Below, piece after piece: positions 22,689 to 34,005 of a DNA stretch of 64,000 bases. The notes under the pieces are model-generated. The model was not told the origin of the DNA, did not search any database, and was given only the letters and a program-made list of their open reading frames with translations. How positions within the stretch are numbered: position 1 is the first letter of the stretch; each line of letters begins with the position of its first letter. The position numbers and the translations under genes are program-made. Source of the DNA: Lachnospiraceae bacterium AC2028 (GTDB lineage Bacteria > Bacillota > Clostridia > Lachnospirales > Lachnospiraceae); the NCBI GenBank assembly GCA_000702685.1, contig JNJD01000008.1, positions 199,223 to 263,222 on the forward strand. The letters are read 5' to 3'.

Positions 22689-23471
22689 ATGAAAGTAACT
22701 ATCCTGGGAGCGAGAGGTTCTATTCCCACCGAAGGAAAGGATATGCTTGAATTCGGCGGAGGTACTTCATGCGTTCTCGTAGAAAGTGATGACCGTGCTA
22801 TATTTCTTGATGCCGGAACGGGTATCATCAACGCACCGGATATAGGAAATAAGTCCATCACGATCCTTCTTACCCATCCTCATCTCGATCATGTCATAGG
22901 ACTTCCCTTTTTCCCGTATATTTCCGAGAAAAACAGAAGGATAGATTTTTATGCCGCCAGGACAGGCGATTATTCCGCATATGAACAGCTTGATACTGTT
23001 TATACGAATCCTCTCTGGCCCTGCAGGATCGTGGATTATCCGTCGGATATAAGGATATTCGATGCGGATTTTCCGATCACCGTCGGCGGTTTTACAGTGA
23101 CGGGAATTCCTTCCGTTCATCCCGGAGGAGGAACTGTTTTCAGGCTTGATGAAAACGGAAAGTCCGTAGTCTATGCAACTGATTACGAATATGAACCGGA
23201 TAAGATCGGAGAACTGATAGAGTTTTCCAAAGACTGCGATCTTCTTCTTTTTGATGCACAGTATACGGATGAAGAATTTGAAGCAAGAAGAGGCTTCGGA
23301 CATTCGACCGTTGCCCAGGGAATGGAAGTCATGAAAAAGTCGGGTGCGAAGAACATACGATTTGTACATCACGATCCAAGACATACGGATGAATTCCTGC
23401 GTGAAATGGAAAGACCCATAAAGAGCGAGGCGGCAGCTTTTGCAAGAAAAGATGAGGTGATCATCCTTTGA
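22689..23471 (+). CDS. MBL-fold metallo-hydrolase
   Basis: 260 residues of the metallo-beta-lactamase fold. LLTHPHLDHVIGLPFF carries the H-x-H-x-D-H zinc motif; further ligands are likely in SVHPGG, ATDYE and VHHDPRHTDEF near the C terminus. N-terminal KVTILGARGSIPT...FGGGTSCVLVE resembles phosphodiesterase-like MBL proteins (RNase Z/PhnP type). First gene of a cassette: its TGA overlaps the TTG of the HD-GYP gene, implying cotranslation. The substrate is unknown; a (cyclic) phosphodiester would suit the neighbours (inference). Confidence 0.8.
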   Translation: MKVTILGARGSIPTEGKDMLEFGGGTSCVLVESDDRAIFLDAGTGIINAPDIGNKSITILLTHPHLDHVIGLPFFPYISEKNRRIDFYAARTGDYSAYEQLDTVYTNPLWPCRIVDYPSDIRIFDADFPITVGGFTVTGIPSVHPGGGTVFRLDENGKSVVYATDYEYEPDKIGELIEFSKDCDLLLFDAQYTDEEFEARRGFGHSTVAQGMEVMKKSGAKNIRFVHHDPRHTDEFLREMERPIKSEAAAFARKDEVIIL

Positions 23472-24952
23472 GCGGTAAAGAGATCAAAAACAGCATAGGT
23501 GAGACGGGCTATACACTTGACCGTATGATACGTATCGCCCTGGATCTGTCATCCGAGAATGATTTTGACATACTCATGCAGAAGATCCTGCTGGAAGCGA
23601 TGGACATATGCCACTGTGATGCGGGAACGGTTTATGTTCTTGAAGATGATCATCTGAATTTCCACACGGTCCTTACCAAATCGCTGGGAACAAGCCTTGA
23701 GGAACAGAACCGTAACAAGAATCTTCCTCCGGTGCCTCTGGGAAGAAAGAACGTCTGTGCATGTGCGGCTCTCGATAAAAAGAGGATCAATATCCCCGAC
23801 GTATATGAATCCAAGGATTATGATTTTACCGGCGCCCAGAAGTACGATGCGATAACTCATTACCGCACAGGTTCCATGCTGGTAATACCGATGGATGATG
23901 ACAAGGATGATATCATCGGAGTTCTGCAGCTTATAAATGCGCAGGATGAAAACGGAAAGACCATCCCCTTTGATCCCGCATACGAACAGATAGTTTCGGC
24001 ACTTGCTTCGCTTGCCGCAGTGAGCTTGAATAACCACCAGCTTGCACAGGAAGTTACCGACACATTGCATTCCTTCGTCGAGGTAATGGTCGATGCGATC
24101 GATGCAAGAAGCGCATACAATGCCAACCACACAAGGAGCATGGTCAGATATGCCGATAAATTCATCGACTGGCTGCGTGAAACGGATAACGAATGGAAAT
24201 TTACGGATGACCAGAAGGACGCATATCTTATGAGCATCTGGCTCCACGATATAGGAAAGCTCATCGTTCCGCTTGAAGTTCTCGATAAGCCCGACAGACT
24301 TGGAGCACTGAAACAGGGACTTAAGAGCAAGGTTGATATCGCATGCCTTATGGAAAAGGTTGAGATGCTCGAGCATCCTGACAGAGCTTCCGATTGCAGC
24401 GCTAAGATCGATACGATCAGGAATGCTTACGAAGTTATAGAAACCGCAAATACCGCGGGATTCCTTCCCGATGAGAAGATAGAAGAGCTGAAAGGAATTG
24501 CGAAAATAAAATTAAAGAATGCCGACGGCGAAGATATACCTCTCCTTGATGAAAAGGAACTTGAAGCGATCACCGTAAGGAAAGGAACTCTTACTGATTC
24601 CGAAAGAAAACAGGTTCAGAGTCACGTTGTATATACAAGGCGCATGCTCGATAAGATGCATTTCAAAGGCATCTACAGGGAGGTTCCGTTCTGGTCGGGA
24701 TCGCACCATGAATTCCTGAACGGCCGGGGTTATCCGAACGGACTTACCGCAGATGACCTTCCGGACCAGTCGAGACTTCTTACCATCATTGATGTGTATG
24801 ATGCGCTTACGGCTGAGGACAGACCGTACAAACCGCCCATGCCGCCGGAGAAAGCATTCGGCATACTTAAGAGCATGAGGGATGACGGACAGATAGACGG
24901 AAGGCTTCTAGATGAATTCATTGAAAGCGAAGCCTGGAAAAAGGATAAATAA
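23468..24952 (+). CDS. GAF domain + HD-GYP cyclic-di-GMP phosphodiesterase
   Basis: 494 residues, probably cytoplasmic, no membrane segment. An N-terminal GAF sensor (about residues 20-185: MDICHCDAGTVYVLEDDHL, GSMLVIPMDDDKDDIIGVLQLINA) is followed by an HD-GYP domain (about 200-490) with IWLHDIGKLIVPLEVLDKP and the signature HHEFLNGRGYPNGL intact. An unusual helical stretch (about 290-370) separates the HD from the GYP part. It should hydrolyse c-di-GMP under control of a GAF ligand or redox signal. TTG start, overlapping the MBL stop. Confidence 0.87.
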   Translation: MSGKEIKNSIGETGYTLDRMIRIALDLSSENDFDILMQKILLEAMDICHCDAGTVYVLEDDHLNFHTVLTKSLGTSLEEQNRNKNLPPVPLGRKNVCACAALDKKRINIPDVYESKDYDFTGAQKYDAITHYRTGSMLVIPMDDDKDDIIGVLQLINAQDENGKTIPFDPAYEQIVSALASLAAVSLNNHQLAQEVTDTLHSFVEVMVDAIDARSAYNANHTRSMVRYADKFIDWLRETDNEWKFTDDQKDAYLMSIWLHDIGKLIVPLEVLDKPDRLGALKQGLKSKVDIACLMEKVEMLEHPDRASDCSAKIDTIRNAYEVIETANTAGFLPDEKIEELKGIAKIKLKNADGEDIPLLDEKELEAITVRKGTLTDSERKQVQSHVVYTRRMLDKMHFKGIYREVPFWSGSHHEFLNGRGYPNGLTADDLPDQSRLLTIIDVYDALTAEDRPYKPPMPPEKAFGILKSMRDDGQIDGRLLDEFIESEAWKKDK

Positions 24953-24978
24953 CCGTAAGGGATAAACGGAGGAAGAAT

Positions 24979-26265
24979 ATGAAAAAGGCACTTGATAAAA
25001 AGAAGATGATCATTATCGCTGTTGTATTGGTAGTGATCATCGGTATTGTCATCGCACTGCTTCTCAGGAAGAATTCGATCAGTGCGACCTCGATGAGAGT
25101 TCTTCGCTATGAAGGAACCGTCAACATGGAAGAAGACGGCATCCTGAAGACCATAAGGGAGAACCTGAGGCTTAAGAGCGGTAACGTTCTCGAGACCGAG
25201 CAGCAGAGCCTTGTATCGATCGGACTTGACGATACCAAGGTCGTAACACTTGATGAAATGTCGAGTGCAAACTTTACCCAGAGCGGAAAGAATCTGAATC
25301 TCAATCTTCAGAAAGGCTCTCTGTATTTCGATGTGCAGAAGCCTCTTGCTGCCGATGAAAATTTCGATATCGCAACCTCAACCATGATCGTCGGTATCCG
25401 CGGAACATCCGGATGGGTGAGCGTCGAGGGAGATCATGAAAGTCTTATCCTCGGAGACGGCCACGTACATGTTATCGCTACGAATCCCGTAACCGGTGAA
25501 ACCAAGGAGATCGATGTCAATCCCAGACAGAGACTGAATGTTTATCTCTACAACGACCGCGATGTAGACAGCGTTGTATTCGAACTTGAGGATATCACCG
25601 AAAGACAGCTTCCCGAGTTCGTATTAAATGTTCTCAGAAATGACATGGCTCTTCTTGACAGAGTATGCGAAGCAACGGGATGGGATAAGAACTGGATCCT
25701 CGGAACCACGGATGGAACTGAAGTGACGGATCCCGAGCCTGCTACGGATCCCGAACCTGTGTCCGAACCTGAACCCGAGCCCGCAGAGCCGGATCATGAG
25801 CATGTATATACTTCCGAAGTGACCAAGCCCGCAACATGCTCAAACCCCGGAGAGATGACATATACCTGCGAATGCGGAGATTCCTACACTGAAGAAATAC
25901 CCGCAACCGGAAAACATACCTATAATTCAACTGTAACAACCCAGGCAACTTGTGCGGTTCCCGGCGTTATGACTTATACATGTTCCGTATGCGGAGATAC
26001 ATATACCGAAGTAATACCCGCAACCGGTGAGCATGATTTCCAGGGCGGAGACTGCCAGCATCCGATGATCTGCACCGTATGCGGTGCCGAGGGACCTATG
26101 GGCCAGCATCAGATGGCGACGATTCATTGTAATGCGGAGACTCATACCGAACACATTTTGGACCCTTCCATTCCGGGCAATACGATGTGGTATATAGATG
26201 TTGAGGTTGTAGACAAGCCTGAACGTGACGAAACCCTCTGCCTGATCTGCGGTTACAGACCCTGA
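24979..26265 (+). CDS. membrane-anchored FecR-domain protein with Cys-pair C-terminal repeats
   Basis: 428 residues. One membrane segment (MIIIAVVLVVIIGIVIALLL, residues 10-29) puts the rest outside. Residues about 40-190 form a FecR domain (LRLKSGNVLETEQQSLVSIGLDDTKVVTLDEMS, GSLYFDVQKPL, VGIRGTSGWVSVEG). A Pro/Glu/Asp spacer follows, then two repeats ATC-x-x-PG-x-MTYTC-x-C-G-x-x-Y-T-E-x-IPATG and a final Cys/His-rich segment. The repeat type is known from clostridial surface proteins. FecR domains relay extracytoplasmic signals; the gene sits between HD-GYP and CHASE2-cyclase genes, so it may be the sensor or ligand for CHASE2. CGGAGG precedes the ATG. Confidence 0.8.
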   Translation: MKKALDKKKMIIIAVVLVVIIGIVIALLLRKNSISATSMRVLRYEGTVNMEEDGILKTIRENLRLKSGNVLETEQQSLVSIGLDDTKVVTLDEMSSANFTQSGKNLNLNLQKGSLYFDVQKPLAADENFDIATSTMIVGIRGTSGWVSVEGDHESLILGDGHVHVIATNPVTGETKEIDVNPRQRLNVYLYNDRDVDSVVFELEDITERQLPEFVLNVLRNDMALLDRVCEATGWDKNWILGTTDGTEVTDPEPATDPEPVSEPEPEPAEPDHEHVYTSEVTKPATCSNPGEMTYTCECGDSYTEEIPATGKHTYNSTVTTQATCAVPGVMTYTCSVCGDTYTEVIPATGEHDFQGGDCQHPMICTVCGAEGPMGQHQMATIHCNAETHTEHILDPSIPGNTMWYIDVEVVDKPERDETLCLICGYRP

Positions 26266-26291
26266 TGATATAAGAAACACAGAAAGTAATC

Positions 26292-28106
26292 ATGAAAAAA
26301 ATCATTTCCAATCCGATAATAATATCCCTCCTTGCGTCGCTTGCGGTGACACTTCTCATCGCAACGGGCGGGGTGCTGGATAAGGTTGATCTCTGGGCAC
26401 AGGATTCGTGGTTTCAGAGTGATAAGGCACTTGACGGAGAGATAATCGTCATCGGAATTGACGATAAGTCCCTTGCAGACATCGGTCCCTACAATACCTG
26501 GGACCGTACAATCATGGCATCCGCTCTCGAAAAGCTCGCGGAAGATCCCGAGATGAAGCCTGCGGTTGTTGCAATAGATACCCTCTATACTGAAGTGTCC
26601 GATCCCGAAGCGGATGAAAGACTTGCAAACGCCGCCGCGGAACTCGGAAATGTTGTTACGGCTTCTTTTGCATCCATCGGTGCCAAGGTTATTACGGAGG
26701 GTGATGAAACCTATTTTGCAACCGATGCTGTGCTTTCATACGAAGAACCGTATGATGCCTTAAGGGATGTGACAACGCAGGGACATATCAATGCGATGTA
26801 CGATACGGACGGAATACTTCGTCATGCACTTCTTTTCGTAAAGCCTGACGGACAGACCGTATATTCCATGGCTTTTGAAACCGCAAGGATCTATGCCGAG
26901 GCAAACGGATTCTCCGTACAGATGCCGCCCGCAAGCTCCAGGGGAAATTATTATGTGACTTATTCCGCCAAGCCCATGGGGTATTATGACGGATATTCTT
27001 TTTCGGATCTGATAAACGGAAACCTGGATCCCAAAGATTATGCAGGTAAGGTCGTATTTATCGGACCCTTTGCCAAGGGACTTCAGGACGAATATTTCAC
27101 TTCGATAGAACGTGCGAAGATGATGTACGGTGTCGAGTATCAGGCCAATGTCGTACAGATGATACTTGAATCCAATTACAAGACTGAAGTCGGAAAATTT
27201 CCGCAGGCCATAGTTCTTTTCATCGTATGCTTCGCGTTATTCCTTCTTTTCCAGAAGGTGGGAATCAAGATCTCATCGATCATAGCTCCCGCTGCTATCG
27301 CGCTCAGCATCGCTGCGGAATATGTTATTTTCAATGTTAAGATCGGAGGAGTCGGACACGTCCTGCATCCTCTGTGGCTTCCGGTAGGAATACTTGTTTT
27401 CTATGTGGCTTCGATAGTCATCCATTATGTGAAGTCGACACTCGAAAAAAGACGTGTCACCAGAACATTTGAAAGATATGTTGCTCCCGAGATCGTACGT
27501 GAGATATTAAAGGACGGTACCGAGGCACTTTCGCTTGGCGGCAAGACCTGTGATATCGCAGTGCTTTTCGTTGATGTCAGAGGATTTACCACGATGTCCG
27601 AAAGACTCGATCCCGAGAAGGTCGTATTTATCCTCAACAAATATCTGACCATGGCGAGCGGATGCGTAGAAGCTACGGGCGGAACTCTCGATAAATTCGT
27701 CGGTGATGCGATGATGGCATTCTGGGGCGCACCTCTTCCCCAGGAAGATCCGGTCATGAATGCGGTGAAGACCGCAATGGGCATCGTTGAAGGATGCGCT
27801 AAGGTGTCCGAAGAACTCAAGGCGGAGATCGGTGAAGAGCTCCGCGTCGGTGTCGGCGTAAACTACGGTCCCGCGGTCGTCGGAAATATGGGCGCCGAAA
27901 AGCATATGGACTACACTGCGATAGGTGATACAGTCAATACCGCCGCACGTCTCGAAGCCAATGCACCCGGCGGCAAGGTATATATCAGCAGAAGCGTTGC
28001 GGATGCTCTCGAAGGCCGCATAACATATACATCACTCGGCGATACCATAAAGCTTAAGGGTAAAGCCGATGGATTCGAAGTTCTTGAACTAAATTCGATA
28101 AAATGA
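26292..28106 (+). CDS. CHASE2-domain class III adenylate/guanylate cyclase
   Basis: 604 residues. A first membrane segment (about 10-27) is followed by an extracellular CHASE2 sensor (about 30-300: DSWFQSDKALDGEIIVIGIDDKSLADIGPYNTWDR, VVFIGPFAKGLQDEYFTSI). Three more membrane segments (about 305-380) precede a cytoplasmic cyclase domain (about 395-600). Catalytic residues: metal Asp in LFVDVRGFTT and FVGDAMMAFWGAP, base-selecting Lys in TLDKFVGD, and N-x3-R in DTVNTAARLEA. It should make cAMP (or cGMP) in response to an outside signal. Last gene of the MBL-HD-GYP-FecR cassette. Confidence 0.88.
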   Translation: MKKIISNPIIISLLASLAVTLLIATGGVLDKVDLWAQDSWFQSDKALDGEIIVIGIDDKSLADIGPYNTWDRTIMASALEKLAEDPEMKPAVVAIDTLYTEVSDPEADERLANAAAELGNVVTASFASIGAKVITEGDETYFATDAVLSYEEPYDALRDVTTQGHINAMYDTDGILRHALLFVKPDGQTVYSMAFETARIYAEANGFSVQMPPASSRGNYYVTYSAKPMGYYDGYSFSDLINGNLDPKDYAGKVVFIGPFAKGLQDEYFTSIERAKMMYGVEYQANVVQMILESNYKTEVGKFPQAIVLFIVCFALFLLFQKVGIKISSIIAPAAIALSIAAEYVIFNVKIGGVGHVLHPLWLPVGILVFYVASIVIHYVKSTLEKRRVTRTFERYVAPEIVREILKDGTEALSLGGKTCDIAVLFVDVRGFTTMSERLDPEKVVFILNKYLTMASGCVEATGGTLDKFVGDAMMAFWGAPLPQEDPVMNAVKTAMGIVEGCAKVSEELKAEIGEELRVGVGVNYGPAVVGNMGAEKHMDYTAIGDTVNTAARLEANAPGGKVYISRSVADALEGRITYTSLGDTIKLKGKADGFEVLELNSIK

Positions 28107-28139: not shown

Positions 28140-29648
28140 ATGGTAACCAACGACGAAGGAATAGTACATTTTAAACACTCGATCATGGAAGAGGTCTGCA
28201 GGCTTGCGTGGGATTCGAATCTCAACGAAGATACCAAGGCTGCACTTGTTGAGAAGATCATTCCCGGTCCCAAGCCGATCTTCAGATGCTGTATCTACAA
28301 AGAGCGAGAGATCGTGCGTGAAAGGATCCGCCTTGCGTGCGGTCTGGATACTTCCGACAATATCGGTTCCGATAATTACGTCCAGGTCATACATGCTGCG
28401 TGCGACGAATGTCCCCTGTCCGCGTATTCCGTTACCGATAACTGCAGATTCTGTCTCGGAAAGGCATGTCTTAATTCGTGCAAATTCGCCGCTATAAGCC
28501 CCGGTGACGTACGTATGCATATCGATCCCGCAAAGTGCAAGGAATGCGGTATGTGCGCGAAAGCGTGTCCATTCGGCGCGATCGTACATCTGGAGCGTCC
28601 CTGCAAGAAAGCCTGTCCCGTGGGCGCGATAACCTACGATGAGTACGGCATCTGCAAGATCGACGAGACAAAGTGCATCAATTGCGGACACTGCATACAC
28701 AGCTGTCCTTTCGGTGCAATCGGATCCAAGACCTATCTTGTTCCCATAATACAGGATATCCTTGCCGGAAAAGAAGTCATCGCAATGGTTGCCCCCGCTA
28801 TAGAGGGCCAGTTCGGCGCCGATATCGATATGGCATCCATAAAAGCGGCCCTGCTCAAGCTCGGCTTTTCCGATATGGTAGAAGTTGGACTGGGCGGAGA
28901 CATGACCGCGGCATTTGAGTCCCTTGAATGGAGCGAAGCGCGTAAGGAAGGCAGAAAGATGACGACATCCTGCTGTCCCGCATTCATCAACATGCTCCGC
29001 AAGCATTTCCCGGATCAGTACCGTGACAATAAATCCACAACCGTATCACCCATGTGTGCTATATCAAGATATCTGAAGCTCACCCATCCCGGATGCACGA
29101 CCGTATTCATCGGTCCCTGCATTGCCAAGAAGGCTGAAGCCAGGGAAGAGAGGATCCCCGATAATGCCGATTATGTCATTACATTCGGCGAACTCAGGGC
29201 ACTGCTCAGATCCAGGGATGTTAAGCTTGAGCACGTTGACGGAGAATACCAGCTTGCTTCGTCATACGGCAAGAAATTCGCATCCAGCGGCGGTGTTGCG
29301 GGTGCGGTTCTCGAATGCATGCAGGAAAGAGGAGAGGATACTTCCGATATCAGGCTTCTTAAGGTTGCCGGAGGTGAAGAATGCCGTAAGGCGCTCCTTA
29401 TGCTGAAAGCGGGAAGGCTTGAGGAAGATTTCATAGAGGGAATGGTATGTCCCGGAGGATGTGTGGGAGGACCTTCCAAGCACGCTACCGAGGCTGAGAT
29501 AACCAAAGCGAGAAATACTTTGCTGGCCAAAGCCGATGACCGTAAGGTGCTTGAAAATCTCAAGGATTATCCCATGGATAAGTTCTCGATGAACCGCCAT
29601 GGGCATATGGATCCCGAACTTGTGAAGAAAGTTTTTGACACGAAATAA
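28140..29648 (+). CDS. monomeric [FeFe]-hydrogenase with N-terminal ferredoxin domains (group B-like)
   Basis: 502 residues, soluble. The N-terminal region (to about 200) is Cys-rich with several [4Fe-4S] sites: CDECPLS, CRFCLGKACLNSC, CKECGMCAKACPFGA, CKKACPVGA and CINCGHCIHSCPFGA. The H-cluster domain has L1 TSCCPAF, L2 FIGPCIAKKAE and L3 EGMVCPGGCVGGPS, so all four cluster cysteines and the proton-relay Cys (first C of SCC) are present. L3 ends GGPS rather than GGGQP, as in group B enzymes, whose physiological role is unsettled. The ATG follows GAGGA. It lies 33 bases after the cyclase gene. Confidence 0.85.
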   Translation: MVTNDEGIVHFKHSIMEEVCRLAWDSNLNEDTKAALVEKIIPGPKPIFRCCIYKEREIVRERIRLACGLDTSDNIGSDNYVQVIHAACDECPLSAYSVTDNCRFCLGKACLNSCKFAAISPGDVRMHIDPAKCKECGMCAKACPFGAIVHLERPCKKACPVGAITYDEYGICKIDETKCINCGHCIHSCPFGAIGSKTYLVPIIQDILAGKEVIAMVAPAIEGQFGADIDMASIKAALLKLGFSDMVEVGLGGDMTAAFESLEWSEARKEGRKMTTSCCPAFINMLRKHFPDQYRDNKSTTVSPMCAISRYLKLTHPGCTTVFIGPCIAKKAEAREERIPDNADYVITFGELRALLRSRDVKLEHVDGEYQLASSYGKKFASSGGVAGAVLECMQERGEDTSDIRLLKVAGGEECRKALLMLKAGRLEEDFIEGMVCPGGCVGGPSKHATEAEITKARNTLLAKADDRKVLENLKDYPMDKFSMNRHGHMDPELVKKVFDTK

Positions 29649-29780: not shown

Positions 29781-29851
29781 GCGACTGTAGTACATCGGTA
29801 GTATATCAGCTTCCCAAGCTGAGGAGGCGGGTCCGACTCCCGTCAGTCGCT
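29781..29851 (+). tRNA. tRNA-Gly (anticodon CCC)
   Basis: 71-base cloverleaf: acceptor GCGACTG pairs with CAGTCGC (29844-29850), discriminator T, no encoded CCA. D-arm GTAC/GTAT with GG in the loop. Anticodon stem TCAGC/GCTGA with loop TTCCCAA, giving anticodon CCC (reads GGG). T-stem GCGGG/CCCGT has loop TCCGACT, where the normally invariant T at position 55 is C. Five T follow the gene and may end transcription. Confidence 0.88.
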
Positions 29852-29941
29852 TTTTACGAAAACCTTGTGATCATATCGGTCGCGAGGTTTTCTGTATCAA
29901 GGGGAAAACATATCTTGTGAGTGGGTTTTTAGGAGGTGTTT

Positions 29942-31873
29942 ATGGGACTTGTCAGTACTAACGACAAATGTATCGGCTGTAACAAGTGTATAAGAGCCTG
30001 TAGCAGCATGGGCGCCAATATTGCAACAGAAAGAGACAGGGGTAACATTATCGATGTTGATCCCGAGAGATGTATCGCATGCGGTGCCTGCCTTGATGCC
30101 TGTGAGCATGGTGCAAGGGAATATACCGATGATGTCGAGAGATTCTTCGATGATCTTAAAAAGGGTACCGGGATCTCCGTTCTCATTGCTCCCGCATTTC
30201 TTGCAAACTATCCCAGAGAATATGAGAAATATCTCGGCATGCTCAAAAAGCTCGGTGTAAACCGCTTCATCAGCGTATCATTCGGTGCCGATATCTGTAC
30301 CTGGGGTTATATCAAGTACATTACCGAGAATAAGTTCTTCGGCGGTATATCACAGCCCTGCCCTGCGGTAGTCGGCTATATCGAGAGATATACTCCCGAA
30401 CTCCTGCCTAAGCTCATGCCCGTTCAGTCCCCCATGATGTGTGCTGCGATCTATCTGAACAAATACATGAATGTCAAGGATAAGCTTGCGTTCATCAGCC
30501 CCTGCATCGCGAAAAAGAATGAGATAGACGATCCCAACAATAAGGGATACGTTTCCTATAACCTCACATTCAAGCGTCTTGTGGAGTACCTTAAAAAGAA
30601 TCCCGTCAGCGGCGCCACTCCTTACAAGGATGAGATAGAATACGGTCTCGGATCCATCTATCCGATGCCCGGCGGCCTCAAGGAGAACGTATACTGGCTT
30701 CTCGGAGAGGATGCTCTCGTAAGACAGATGGAAGGTGAGCATCATATGTATGAGTACCTTCAGCGCAACAAGGAGCTCCTTAAGTGCGGAAGATCCTCTT
30801 ATCTCTTTGTCGATGCTCTTAATTGTACAAACGGATGCCTCTACGGAACCGGAACGGAAGTACGTGATGACATGAGAGAAGATGTCTTCATGGCCATCCA
30901 GAAGATCAAGGCGGAAAGCAAGAATAATTCCAAGAAGTCCGCATGGGGAAGAGAACTCACTCCCGAAAAGAGGCTTGCTGCACTCAATAAGGAATTCGCA
31001 GATCTTAACCTGAATGACTTCCTCAGAAAGTATACCGACAGAAGCGCCGCATGCAGGATCAAGACTCCGAGTGCGAAGGAACTTGACGATATCTTCAGAC
31101 AGCTTAAGAAGGATACTCCCGAAAAGCGTTCGATCGACTGCGGATGCTGCGGATATGAATCCTGTGAAAAAATGGCCGTGGCTATCTATAACGGCTTCAA
31201 TCATATTCACAACTGCGTACACTTCATCAAGGACCGTGCTTACGAAGAGAAGGACAAGGCTGTTGCGCTGAGTGATGAAGTAAACAGAACCCAGGAAGAG
31301 ATGCGCGAGAAGAAGATTGTTCTTGCCGATGAGATCAGCGAGAACTTCAGCTCAATGAGAAGTACTATCACTCAGATGGAACAGACCGGTAACGATAATG
31401 CTCATCAGACTGAGGGTATTTCCAAAGAGATGTCTCAGGTCAATGATTTCGCTATAGAACTTAAGGAAGTTCTTAATACTATTGAGGAATGCCTGAACAG
31501 GCTTGAATCGAACAATACTGCCGTTATCGGAATCGCATCGCAGACAAATCTCCTCGCACTGAATGCTTCCATAGAAGCCGCACGTGCGGGTGAAGCCGGA
31601 AGAGGCTTTGCGGTTGTTGCGGATGAGATCAAAAAACTGGCTGAAGATTCCAAGACAACGGCCGATGACAGTAATGCCAATAACAGGGATGTCAAGGAAA
31701 CCGTTGAACATCTTATGGAAGAAGCGGCCAAACTCAGTGAGATCGTCAACAGCGTAAACGGCAGGACCACGAGTCTTGTAGCCTCCGCTGAGGAAACTGC
31801 TGTATCTATCAGTCTCATGAAGGATATGGCTGAAAATGTCGAATCATCCTTAAGAGAGATCCTCGAGCATTAA
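29942..31873 (+). CDS. soluble [FeFe]-hydrogenase-like sensor fused to FeS and methyl-accepting chemotaxis domains
   Basis: 643 residues, no membrane segment; start at ATG 29942 behind AGGAGG. Order: two [4Fe-4S] ferredoxin motifs (C10/13/16/20 and C44/47/50/54); a hydrogenase H-cluster domain with SQPCPA (C140), SPCIAKK (C188) and NCTNGC (C295, C299); a PF04060-type FeS motif with exact C-x2-C-x4-C-x16-C spacing (C400, C403, C408, C425); and an MCP signalling coiled coil with hairpin tip [27 protein letters not shown] (about 537-563). The four H-cluster ligands are kept, but the proton-relay Cys before C140 is Pro and the L3 Met is lost, as in sensory hydrogenases. Likely a cytoplasmic H2/redox receptor for CheA (inference). 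Confidence 0.85.
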
Positions 31874-32037: not shown

Positions 32038-34005
32038 TCATTCTATCACTTCCGAGATCTCAAACTTTCCTTCTCCGATCATACTGTAGATATCATCAAT
32101 GGGAACGGGCTTGCTGTAATAGTATCCCTGCAGCCTGTCGCATCCGACCATGGTCAGGAAGTCAACACATGCATCATTTTCAACACCTTCGGTAAGTGTC
32201 TTCATTCCGAGGTTGTCGGCAAGATCTATGACAGTGCAGAGGATCTTCTTGGAATTTTCCGTATTTTCCTCGTAATCGGGATCGCCGAAGTTCTTGAGGA
32301 ATACCATATCGATCTTGAGCACATCAAAGTTGAAATCCTTGAGTACGTTGAGAGAAGAGTATCCGGAGCCGAAATCGTCGAGCCAGAGGCTGTAGCCTTT
32401 CTCGTGGAGGATATCCATCGATTTCTTGAGTCCGAGCGTATCGTCCGTCAGGGCGCTTTCCGTGATCTCTACATGCAGATACTTTCTTGGAATGTCATAC
32501 TTTTCAACAAGTCTTTCGAGTTCGCCGATCGCATCCATAAGCTCGAAATCAAGCCTTGAGAAATTGAGGGAAACGGGGAATATCTTTTCACCTTTATCGA
32601 GTCTTTCCCTCATGTCCCTGCAGACGGTTTCGTATATGCACAGATCGAGCTTGTCTATCTGACGTGACTCTTCAAGCACGGGGATGAATGTACCGGGTGA
32701 AAGGAAACCGTATTTTGGATCGATCCAGCGTGCGAGTGCCTCGCATCCGCAGAGCTTCTTATCCTCGGACCAGACGACCGGCTGATAATAAACCTTGATG
32801 TATCCTTCACGAACGGCTTTGTCCACGTTGTTGATGATGTAATTACGGAGCCTGAAATTCTCGGCCATCTTCTCATCGTATTCGGCATAGAATCTGTCCG
32901 CCTGATGGGAGATGGTGGTGCATGCGTATCTTGCCCTGTCGGTCTCGAGACGGGGATCTTCAATTTCTCCTTTCGGTCTGTATGCACCGACCTTAAGAGT
33001 AAGGTAAAGTTCATCCGGTGTATCCTTGCCGATGGATTCCTGAATCTTGGTTATCCTTTCAAGATAATCCGGCTTATCGGTAAGAATGGTGAAATGGTCG
33101 TTCGAAAGTCTCGCATATGAATCGTCTTCGAAATAATTGGCGATCTCCTTGGAAAGATTTATGAGCAGTTCGTTTCCTTTCATGAAACCGAGGGAGTCGT
33201 TGTAGAGTTTGAAGTTCTCGATGTTTATGAAAAGATATACGAGGTTTTCCTTGTCGATCGTCTCAAGCTGCTTGAAGGCTTTGTCGGTAAAGCCTTTTAC
33301 ATTGGGAATCCCGGTAAGCTCATCCGTAACCGATGCAATGACAAGCTTTTCGGATTTTATTGCTTCCGAATGACGCTGATGATATATGCTTATGACTACG
33401 GTTATCATGGAAATATAGAAGGTTGCGAAATTGATCTTGTCGCCTTCGTTCATTCCGAGCGTGCCGTCCTTAAGATAGACGAATTTATCAAGATATATGA
33501 TATATGCATTTCCGATGACCATGAGCATCAGGAATGATATATAGGGCCTCCAGATGAGAAGGCATGCCGCGTAGAGTACCATCGTAAGGAAGCAGAGGAT
33601 CATTCTTCCCTTGGAGTAATCGTTGGCGGATACGGTCCATCCGAAATACATGCATATGCCGGTGAATATGAGAGTGAGGATAATGCTGAGCCTCTTGGAT
33701 CTGCCTATCTTATCCTTCATATAAAGGATCGAATAGATAAGCATCAGTACACCTATCAGAAGGAGCATCCAATAGCTCTTCGTATAGGTGAAGAAACTTT
33801 CAAAGGTGAATTCGTATTTTCCGGAGAAGATATACTTATTCAGATAGCGTACTATCATCCATGTTTCCAGAACGATGATGATGGATGACATATAGATCGT
33901 GGAGCGTACATTCGCGTCACGATGGAATGATTTTTCGTAATCGGACATTTTGAAGAATCCGAGTGCCGCAAGGATCCTCTTGCCGAGACTGTCCTTCTTT
34001 TCCAT
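32038..34005 (-). CDS. membrane protein with degenerate GGDEF and intact EAL domain (c-di-GMP phosphodiesterase)
   Basis: 655 residues. Six or so membrane segments fill about residues 30-215, a sensor region of unknown type. A GGDEF domain follows (about 225-375: SVTDELTGIPNVKGF), but its active loop reads RLSNDHF instead of RxGGDEF, so cyclase activity is unlikely. The EAL domain (about 390-645) keeps the catalytic set: CEALARW, LNFSR, VEITESA, LDDFGSGYSSL, LKIDMVFL, LTEGVEN and QGYYYSKP. Net activity should be c-di-GMP breakdown, perhaps with GTP control through the dead GGDEF. GGGGAG precedes the ATG. Confidence 0.88.
   Translation of the reverse strand: MEKKDSLGKRILAALGFFKMSDYEKSFHRDANVRSTIYMSSIIIVLETWMIVRYLNKYIFSGKYEFTFESFFTYTKSYWMLLLIGVLMLIYSILYMKDKIGRSKRLSIILTLIFTGICMYFGWTVSANDYSKGRMILCFLTMVLYAACLLIWRPYISFLMLMVIGNAYIIYLDKFVYLKDGTLGMNEGDKINFATFYISMITVVISIYHQRHSEAIKSEKLVIASVTDELTGIPNVKGFTDKAFKQLETIDKENLVYLFINIENFKLYNDSLGFMKGNELLINLSKEIANYFEDDSYARLSNDHFTILTDKPDYLERITKIQESIGKDTPDELYLTLKVGAYRPKGEIEDPRLETDRARYACTTISHQADRFYAEYDEKMAENFRLRNYIINNVDKAVREGYIKVYYQPVVWSEDKKLCGCEALARWIDPKYGFLSPGTFIPVLEESRQIDKLDLCIYETVCRDMRERLDKGEKIFPVSLNFSRLDFELMDAIGELERLVEKYDIPRKYLHVEITESALTDDTLGLKKSMDILHEKGYSLWLDDFGSGYSSLNVLKDFNFDVLKIDMVFLKNFGDPDYEENTENSKKILCTVIDLADNLGMKTLTEGVENDACVDFLTMVGCDRLQGYYYSKPVPIDDIYSMIGEGKFEISEVIE

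Follow-up and report, generated by a model that had tools for sequence, protein, structure and literature searches.

A hydrogenase-type sensor module fused to a chemoreceptor signalling domain in Lachnospiraceae and its apparent exchange of outputs

In the regulatory [NiFe] hydrogenases (HoxBC/HoxJ; HydDB groups 2b and 2c), a hydrogenase does the sensing and is coupled to a kinase or a cyclase; these systems have another metal site, belong to another protein family than the sensor studied here and place the output on a separate subunit. Among [FeFe] hydrogenases, HydDB (2016) used the combination of an H-cluster domain with an MCP signalling domain to define group C2, labelled 'Chemotactic (putative)' (PMC5037454), and this assignment was repeated in PMC9431212. 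Group C2 genes reached a 3.2-fold higher abundance in the rumen microbiomes of Holstein than of Jersey cattle (PMC10811737), and the group has been tallied as H2 sensing in rumen and gut surveys from domain names alone. Two sensory relatives, TamHydS of Thermoanaerobacter mathranii and TmHydS of Thermotoga maritima, in which the catalytic residues C299, M353 and M497 are replaced, bind H2 and slowly turn it over (PMC8163306, PMC10055695). We analysed a 64,000-nucleotide stretch of the Lachnospiraceae bacterium AC2028 genome (contig JNJD01000008.1, hereafter the window) which encodes an MCP-linked sensor. Judged by its architecture, with an H-cluster domain carrying the L1-L3 ligand cysteines and an MCP output on one chain, the protein is a member of a named class, [FeFe] group C2, and the fusion itself is not new. 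A preliminary description of the locus had regarded an MCP output as much less described than PAS or kinase outputs; this is true of experiments, none of which was found for any MCP-type member in the literature searched, but not of the architecture, which already defines the HydDB group. What is new here is the co-occurrence with Che proteins, the short signalling arm, the apparently swappable outputs on one module, and the many carriers without HydG.

The reading frame of the sensor is continuous from 29936 to 31873 on the forward strand and opens with GTG. Its start is likely the ATG at 29942, because an AGGAGG (29931-29936) stands 5 bases upstream of it and the GTG at 29936 overlaps that ribosome-binding site; residue numbers are nevertheless counted from the GTG. 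All Pfam matches of the protein (dicluster Fer4, PF02906, PF04060 and PF00015) exceed their respective cut-offs, the PF00015 match covering residues 529-642 (84.5 bits; cut-off 34.6), whilst no transmembrane segment was found in the protein and Pfam gave neither a PAS nor a HAMP match. These results bear out the earlier proposal of a soluble fusion of ferredoxin clusters, H-cluster domain, PF04060 motif and MCP domain, including the exact spacing of the PF04060-type motif (Table 1). In the AF2 model (mean pLDDT 76, moderate), a hydrogenase-like front half is followed by a long hairpin whose helices span residues 428-550 and 552-644, and the best Foldseek matches in the PDB were all [FeFe]-hydrogenases. 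The fusion is real and not a chance product: a scan of genome contigs identified 203 relatives, mostly from rumen Lachnospiraceae, and nearly all complete ones are about 640-670 aa long and align end to end, as judged from 80 of the 203 found. All eight N-terminal ferredoxin cysteines were invariant in 32 relatives.

Table 1. Coordinates of the sensor, its domains and the associated genes (window positions unless a locus is named)
Feature	Position	Strand	Evidence
Hydrogenase-type sensor fused to MCP signalling domain, 643 aa from ATG	29942..31873	+	ORF and Pfam
Two N-terminal [4Fe-4S] ferredoxin-type motifs, residues 8-60 (C12 C15 C18 C22, C46 C49 C52 C56)	29957..30115	+	Pfam Fer4_7 / Fer4_10 above cut-off
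H-cluster domain, residues 82-304	30179..30847	+	PF02906, 105 bits
C-terminal [4Fe-4S] motif Cx2Cx4Cx16C (C402, C405, C410, C427)	31133..31219	+	PF04060, residues 400-428, above cut-off
MCP antiparallel hairpin, residues 428-645, tip Glu 553	31217..31870	+	PF00015 and AF2 helices
Monomeric group B [FeFe] hydrogenase	28140..29648	+	TIGR04105, 555 bits (cut-off 450)
tRNA-Gly (CCC), between group B hydrogenase gene and sensor gene	29781..29851	+	ARAGORN
A6-type NADH-dependent group A hydrogenase	L104:8194-9966		

By position, the H-cluster ligands are C142 (L1), C190 (L2), and C297 and C301 (L3), so that all four ligands claimed at the outset are present. The CpI positions C299, M353 and M497 are occupied by P141, S188 and L295, which confirms the reported exchange of the proton-relay Cys for Pro and the loss of the L3 Met; the L2 Met, absent from the earlier list, is lost as well. 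This P-C / S-P-C / L-N-C pattern is retained across nearly all output types, and the P/S/L active site was found in 78 of 81 MCP-type relatives and in 13 of 15 HK-type ones. A catalytic group A or B identity was rejected, as P141 and L295 replace the relay Cys and the Met and the protein falls far under the cut-offs of both catalytic [FeFe] family models (TIGR04105, 140 bits against 450; TIGR02512, 91 bits against 406). The sensor-type features of the active site thus support the original view of a sensor rather than an enzyme.

An operon of the sensor gene with the adjacent group B hydrogenase gene was also rejected, since the tRNA-Gly intervenes and only the nearest relatives retain the pairing; elsewhere the sensor gene stands alone, with no neighbour in common. 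The group B hydrogenase is context and not part of the sensor system. Further upstream, a row of signalling genes (22689-28106) encodes a metallo-beta-lactamase fold, a GAF-HD-GYP, a FecR-domain and a CHASE2-adenylate/guanylate cyclase protein, and its gene order is conserved in the relative L082; a convergent GGDEF-EAL gene (32038-34005) follows the sensor.

The preliminary description had made its chemotactic reading depend on CheA and CheW. In the window's genome (2.77 Mb, 14 contigs, 99.6% complete), one region carries a single CheA, CheW, a CheV-like protein, CheB, CheC, CheD and a FliA-type sigma factor, while CheR is encoded elsewhere and six flagellin-type matches were identified. The sensor gene lies far from this che operon, on contig C8 as opposed to C6. 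The sensor module was carried by 82 of 396 genomes in an even sample of Lachnospiraceae, and CheA was present in 78 of these 82 versus 132 of the 314 other genomes (Fisher p 2e-20, a value inflated by shared ancestry, the motile Lachnospiraceae being related and the co-occurrence partly phylogenetic). Two of the four CheA-less carriers are incomplete genomes; the only well-assembled ones, G053 and G084, both have histidine-kinase outputs, in line with a link between output and machinery.

The signalling tip of the sensor is canonical and of the same type as the tips of the genome's membrane MCPs, consistent with a chemoreceptor able to bind CheA and CheW; we consider it very probable that the sensor signals through CheA. 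Its C-arm has 92 residues (about 13 heptads), compared with 149-156 residues (21-22 heptads, 44H class) in the 11 complete membrane receptors that this genome encodes. The strict methylation consensus was absent from the window protein and from 131 of 162 relatives; a relaxed version occurs close to the C-terminus in many relatives, and the strict version is found in most membrane receptors of the genome. As neither the consensus nor the length class is that of a methylation-adapting chemoreceptor, the sensor may be either not methylation-adapted or adapted differently, and it may belong to a cytoplasmic array; given the short arm, it need not share an array with the membrane receptors.

Whether the H-domain can hold a complete H-cluster bears directly on the cue. 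In the window's genome, HydG was not detected at E<=1e-3, the HydF search recovered ordinary GTPases only (best 89 bits; cut-off 325.55), and tblastn identified no HydE or HydG in the 2.09 of 2.77 Mb (75%) that it covered. As HydG and HydF were undetected, the species may not build a full H-cluster, although hydF directly adjoins hydG in most relatives, so that a single assembly gap could remove both. The genome encodes three H-domain proteins, namely an A6-type NADH-dependent enzyme, a group B enzyme and the sensor; the retention of the two hydrogenases without maturases may point to a maturation route not yet recognised or to an assembly gap. The L1 motif of the group A hydrogenase reads TSCSPGW, with Ser where a second Cys is usual.

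Across the sample, HydG was no commoner in sensor genomes (37 of 82) than in the others (139 of 314; odds ratio 1.04, p 0.90), and it was missing from 28 of the 52 sensor genomes that are at least 95% complete. Random assembly loss was rejected as the cause: HydG status agreed in 43 of 47 same-genus pairs versus 51% expected (p 2e-9), indicating that its absence is a real trait. On the sensor tree, HydG status did not cluster (26 changes versus a shuffled mean of 27.4). Nor was the [2Fe] pocket seen to be lost where HydG is lacking: P86, S188, K193, L295 and the four Cys are equally conserved in HydG-lacking and HydG-bearing sensor genomes. Plasmid-borne hydG was found on some Bacteroides and Monoglobus plasmids, with no Lachnospiraceae among the matches listed. 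Two plasmid entries were observed besides. The 243-kb plasmid pNP243 of Butyrivibrio fibrisolvens D1 carries a 506-aa dicluster protein (L361:9566-11086) whose H-domain matches the query and whose length is group B-like, and no hydG on pNP243 was among the matches listed; a 2.6-Mb entry filed as an Acetoanaerobium noterae plasmid (NZ_CP154629.1), which looks like a chromosome, carries a 37%-identical sensor-MCP fusion and hydG. Either another maturation route exists, or the sensors, and perhaps the companion enzymes too, run on the [4Fe-4S] part only.

The maturase results bring two readings of the cue into opposition. A genuine H2 chemoreceptor, whose H-cluster is complete and which would guide cells in H2 gradients, for instance with respect to rumen methanogens, falls slightly short of an even chance in our estimate: the ligands and pocket are invariant, the HydS relatives handle H2 in spite of their replaced residues, and group C2 is enriched in the Holstein rumen, whereas sensor presence does not track HydG and no maturase was found in the window's genome. 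Alternatively, in the window's and many related species the protein might do without the [2Fe] subcluster, its H-domain [4Fe-4S] and three accessory clusters informing CheA of the ferredoxin pool, O2 or nitrosative stress and not of H2. The missing maturases in a 99.6% complete genome, the frequency of HydG in carriers and its concordance within genera speak for this second reading; we consider it rather unlikely, as the [2Fe]-site residues are kept equally well without HydG and the genome retains A6-type and group B hydrogenases that would be useless without [2Fe]. The preliminary description had suggested steering by H2 or redox state. The output machinery for such steering is present, but the case for H2 itself is weakened by the lack of detectable HydG and HydF and by the indifference of sensor carriage to HydG. 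Sensing of H2 through a full H-cluster is therefore plausible in HydG-bearing species, where we put it at even odds, and doubtful in the window's species, where the sequence data make it an unlikely cue.

We also studied which outputs are joined to the sensor module, which was found elsewhere across the phylum as well. At 137 loci, typed by sequence motifs and, for 18 representatives, by Pfam, the outputs comprised MCP, histidine or hybrid kinase, GGDEF-EAL, GGDEF alone, HD-GYP, sigma-54 activator, PAS, and MCP with a receiver domain. The exact Cx2Cx4Cx16C motif was present in 132 of the 137 sequences, the other five being truncated or of group B. In a tree of 131 modules, 120 fell into one clade (SH-aLRT 100), separate from the PAS-linked HydS type; this clade bears MCP, HK, sigma-54 and GGDEF-EAL outputs, and the tree requires at least 16 output changes. 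Judging from these sequences, the sensor module is a widespread plug-in with swappable outputs, and the many outputs within one clade suggest that the module signals through a generic mechanical link.

These outputs also bear on the idea that the protein is a slow catalytic hydrogenase whose MCP part does no more than bring the enzyme to the chemoreceptor array. The measurable H2 turnover kept by TamHydS and TmHydS would allow it, but localisation makes no sense with kinase, cyclase or sigma-54 outputs, all three catalytic second-sphere residues are replaced, and the sole well-assembled CheA-less carriers have kinase outputs; we regard it as highly improbable. A broader proposal is that the H-domain here is a general redox module, or one matured by an unknown route, plugged through the C-terminal cluster into chemotaxis, HK, c-di-GMP and sigma-54 outputs, so that the 'H2-sensing' label of C2 would be wrong in many species. 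We hold this proposal only tentatively.

Several individual fusions were observed. GGDEF-EAL is fused to the same H-cluster module at L048:12-2531, L137, L146, L147, L150, L156, L164 and L171, and at L048 this version lies about 4.3 kb from an MCP version on one contig; the openly accessible literature yielded no relevant report of GGDEF or a similar domain fused to an H-cluster domain. Fusions to a sigma-54 activator (AAA+ and Fis HTH) were confirmed by Pfam at L238:148-2394 and L215:127-2850, and further ones among L220-L231 were assigned by motif. A single locus has an HD-GYP output (L142:2524-4215), and a single one has a receiver domain after its MCP hairpin (L136:2554-4929).

Taken together, we propose, with a probability of roughly 0.7, that the protein is a cytoplasmic C2-kind chemoreceptor which reports the redox or H2 state of its H-domain to CheA via the C-terminal cluster. 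Its architecture, ligands, canonical tip, short arm without the strict methylation consensus, the presence and co-occurrence of Che proteins and the output swapping are read from sequence; the redox coupling, helix strain, control of CheA and direction of the response we infer. The N-terminal [4Fe-4S] clusters and the H-domain would take up electrons from H2, where the H-cluster is complete, and/or from ferredoxin. The charge state would then pass to the C-terminal Cx2Cx4Cx16C cluster, the last ligand of which, C427, abuts the 120-residue signalling helix. Since this Cys immediately precedes the helix (start at 428) in the AF2 model, the C-terminal cluster is a natural candidate for the transmission point, as has also been suspected for M2f enzymes (Land et al., PMC8163306). 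Strain in the helical hairpin might finally alter CheA/CheW activity at the conserved tip and thereby the swimming response. The family lends itself to clean tests: its receptor is short, soluble and found in motile anaerobes, its outputs have been exchanged naturally on one sensor module, and its carriers include genera that have HydG as well as genera that lack it. Such tests would reveal whether H2 or the internal redox state guides the navigation of anaerobes, and the cue used bears on how fermenters are positioned relative to methanogens.

Compared with known systems, the protein stands beside the published C2 reports by its architecture and rumen Clostridia host, and it shares with HydDB C2 the MCP-linked H-cluster domain and the proposed regulatory role. 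However, HydDB assumes H2 sensing, whereas about half of the carriers here are without HydG and the clade bears other outputs. Its type of signalling tip is that of soluble cytoplasmic MCPs and of the 44H membrane receptors in its own genome, but the protein is about 9 heptads shorter per arm and has no transmembrane segment, HAMP match or strict methylation consensus. The PAS-linked group C (M2f) proteins, HydS of Thermotoga maritima and of Ruminococcus albus (PMC10055695, PMC6776011), likewise have two N-terminal [4Fe-4S] clusters, an H-domain without the proton-relay Cys and a C-terminal Cx2Cx4Cx16C cluster. They carry PAS where the window protein carries MCP, and the active site is A/G/S in TmHydS and A or S / G / N in the sampled PAS-type relatives, as opposed to P/S/L here; without a PAS domain and with the PAS-type sequences outside its clade, the sensor does not belong to this type. 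TamHydS (M2e, proposed group D; PMC8163306) is similar in having Ser at M353, Leu at M497, the same accessory clusters and no PAS. TamHydS has no fused signalling domain, and its gene instead adjoins a bifurcating hydrogenase and a kinase-like gene, while the window protein has its MCP output fused. At M353 and M497, nevertheless, the residues of the sensor (S188 and L295) match the published TamHydS and not TmHydS.
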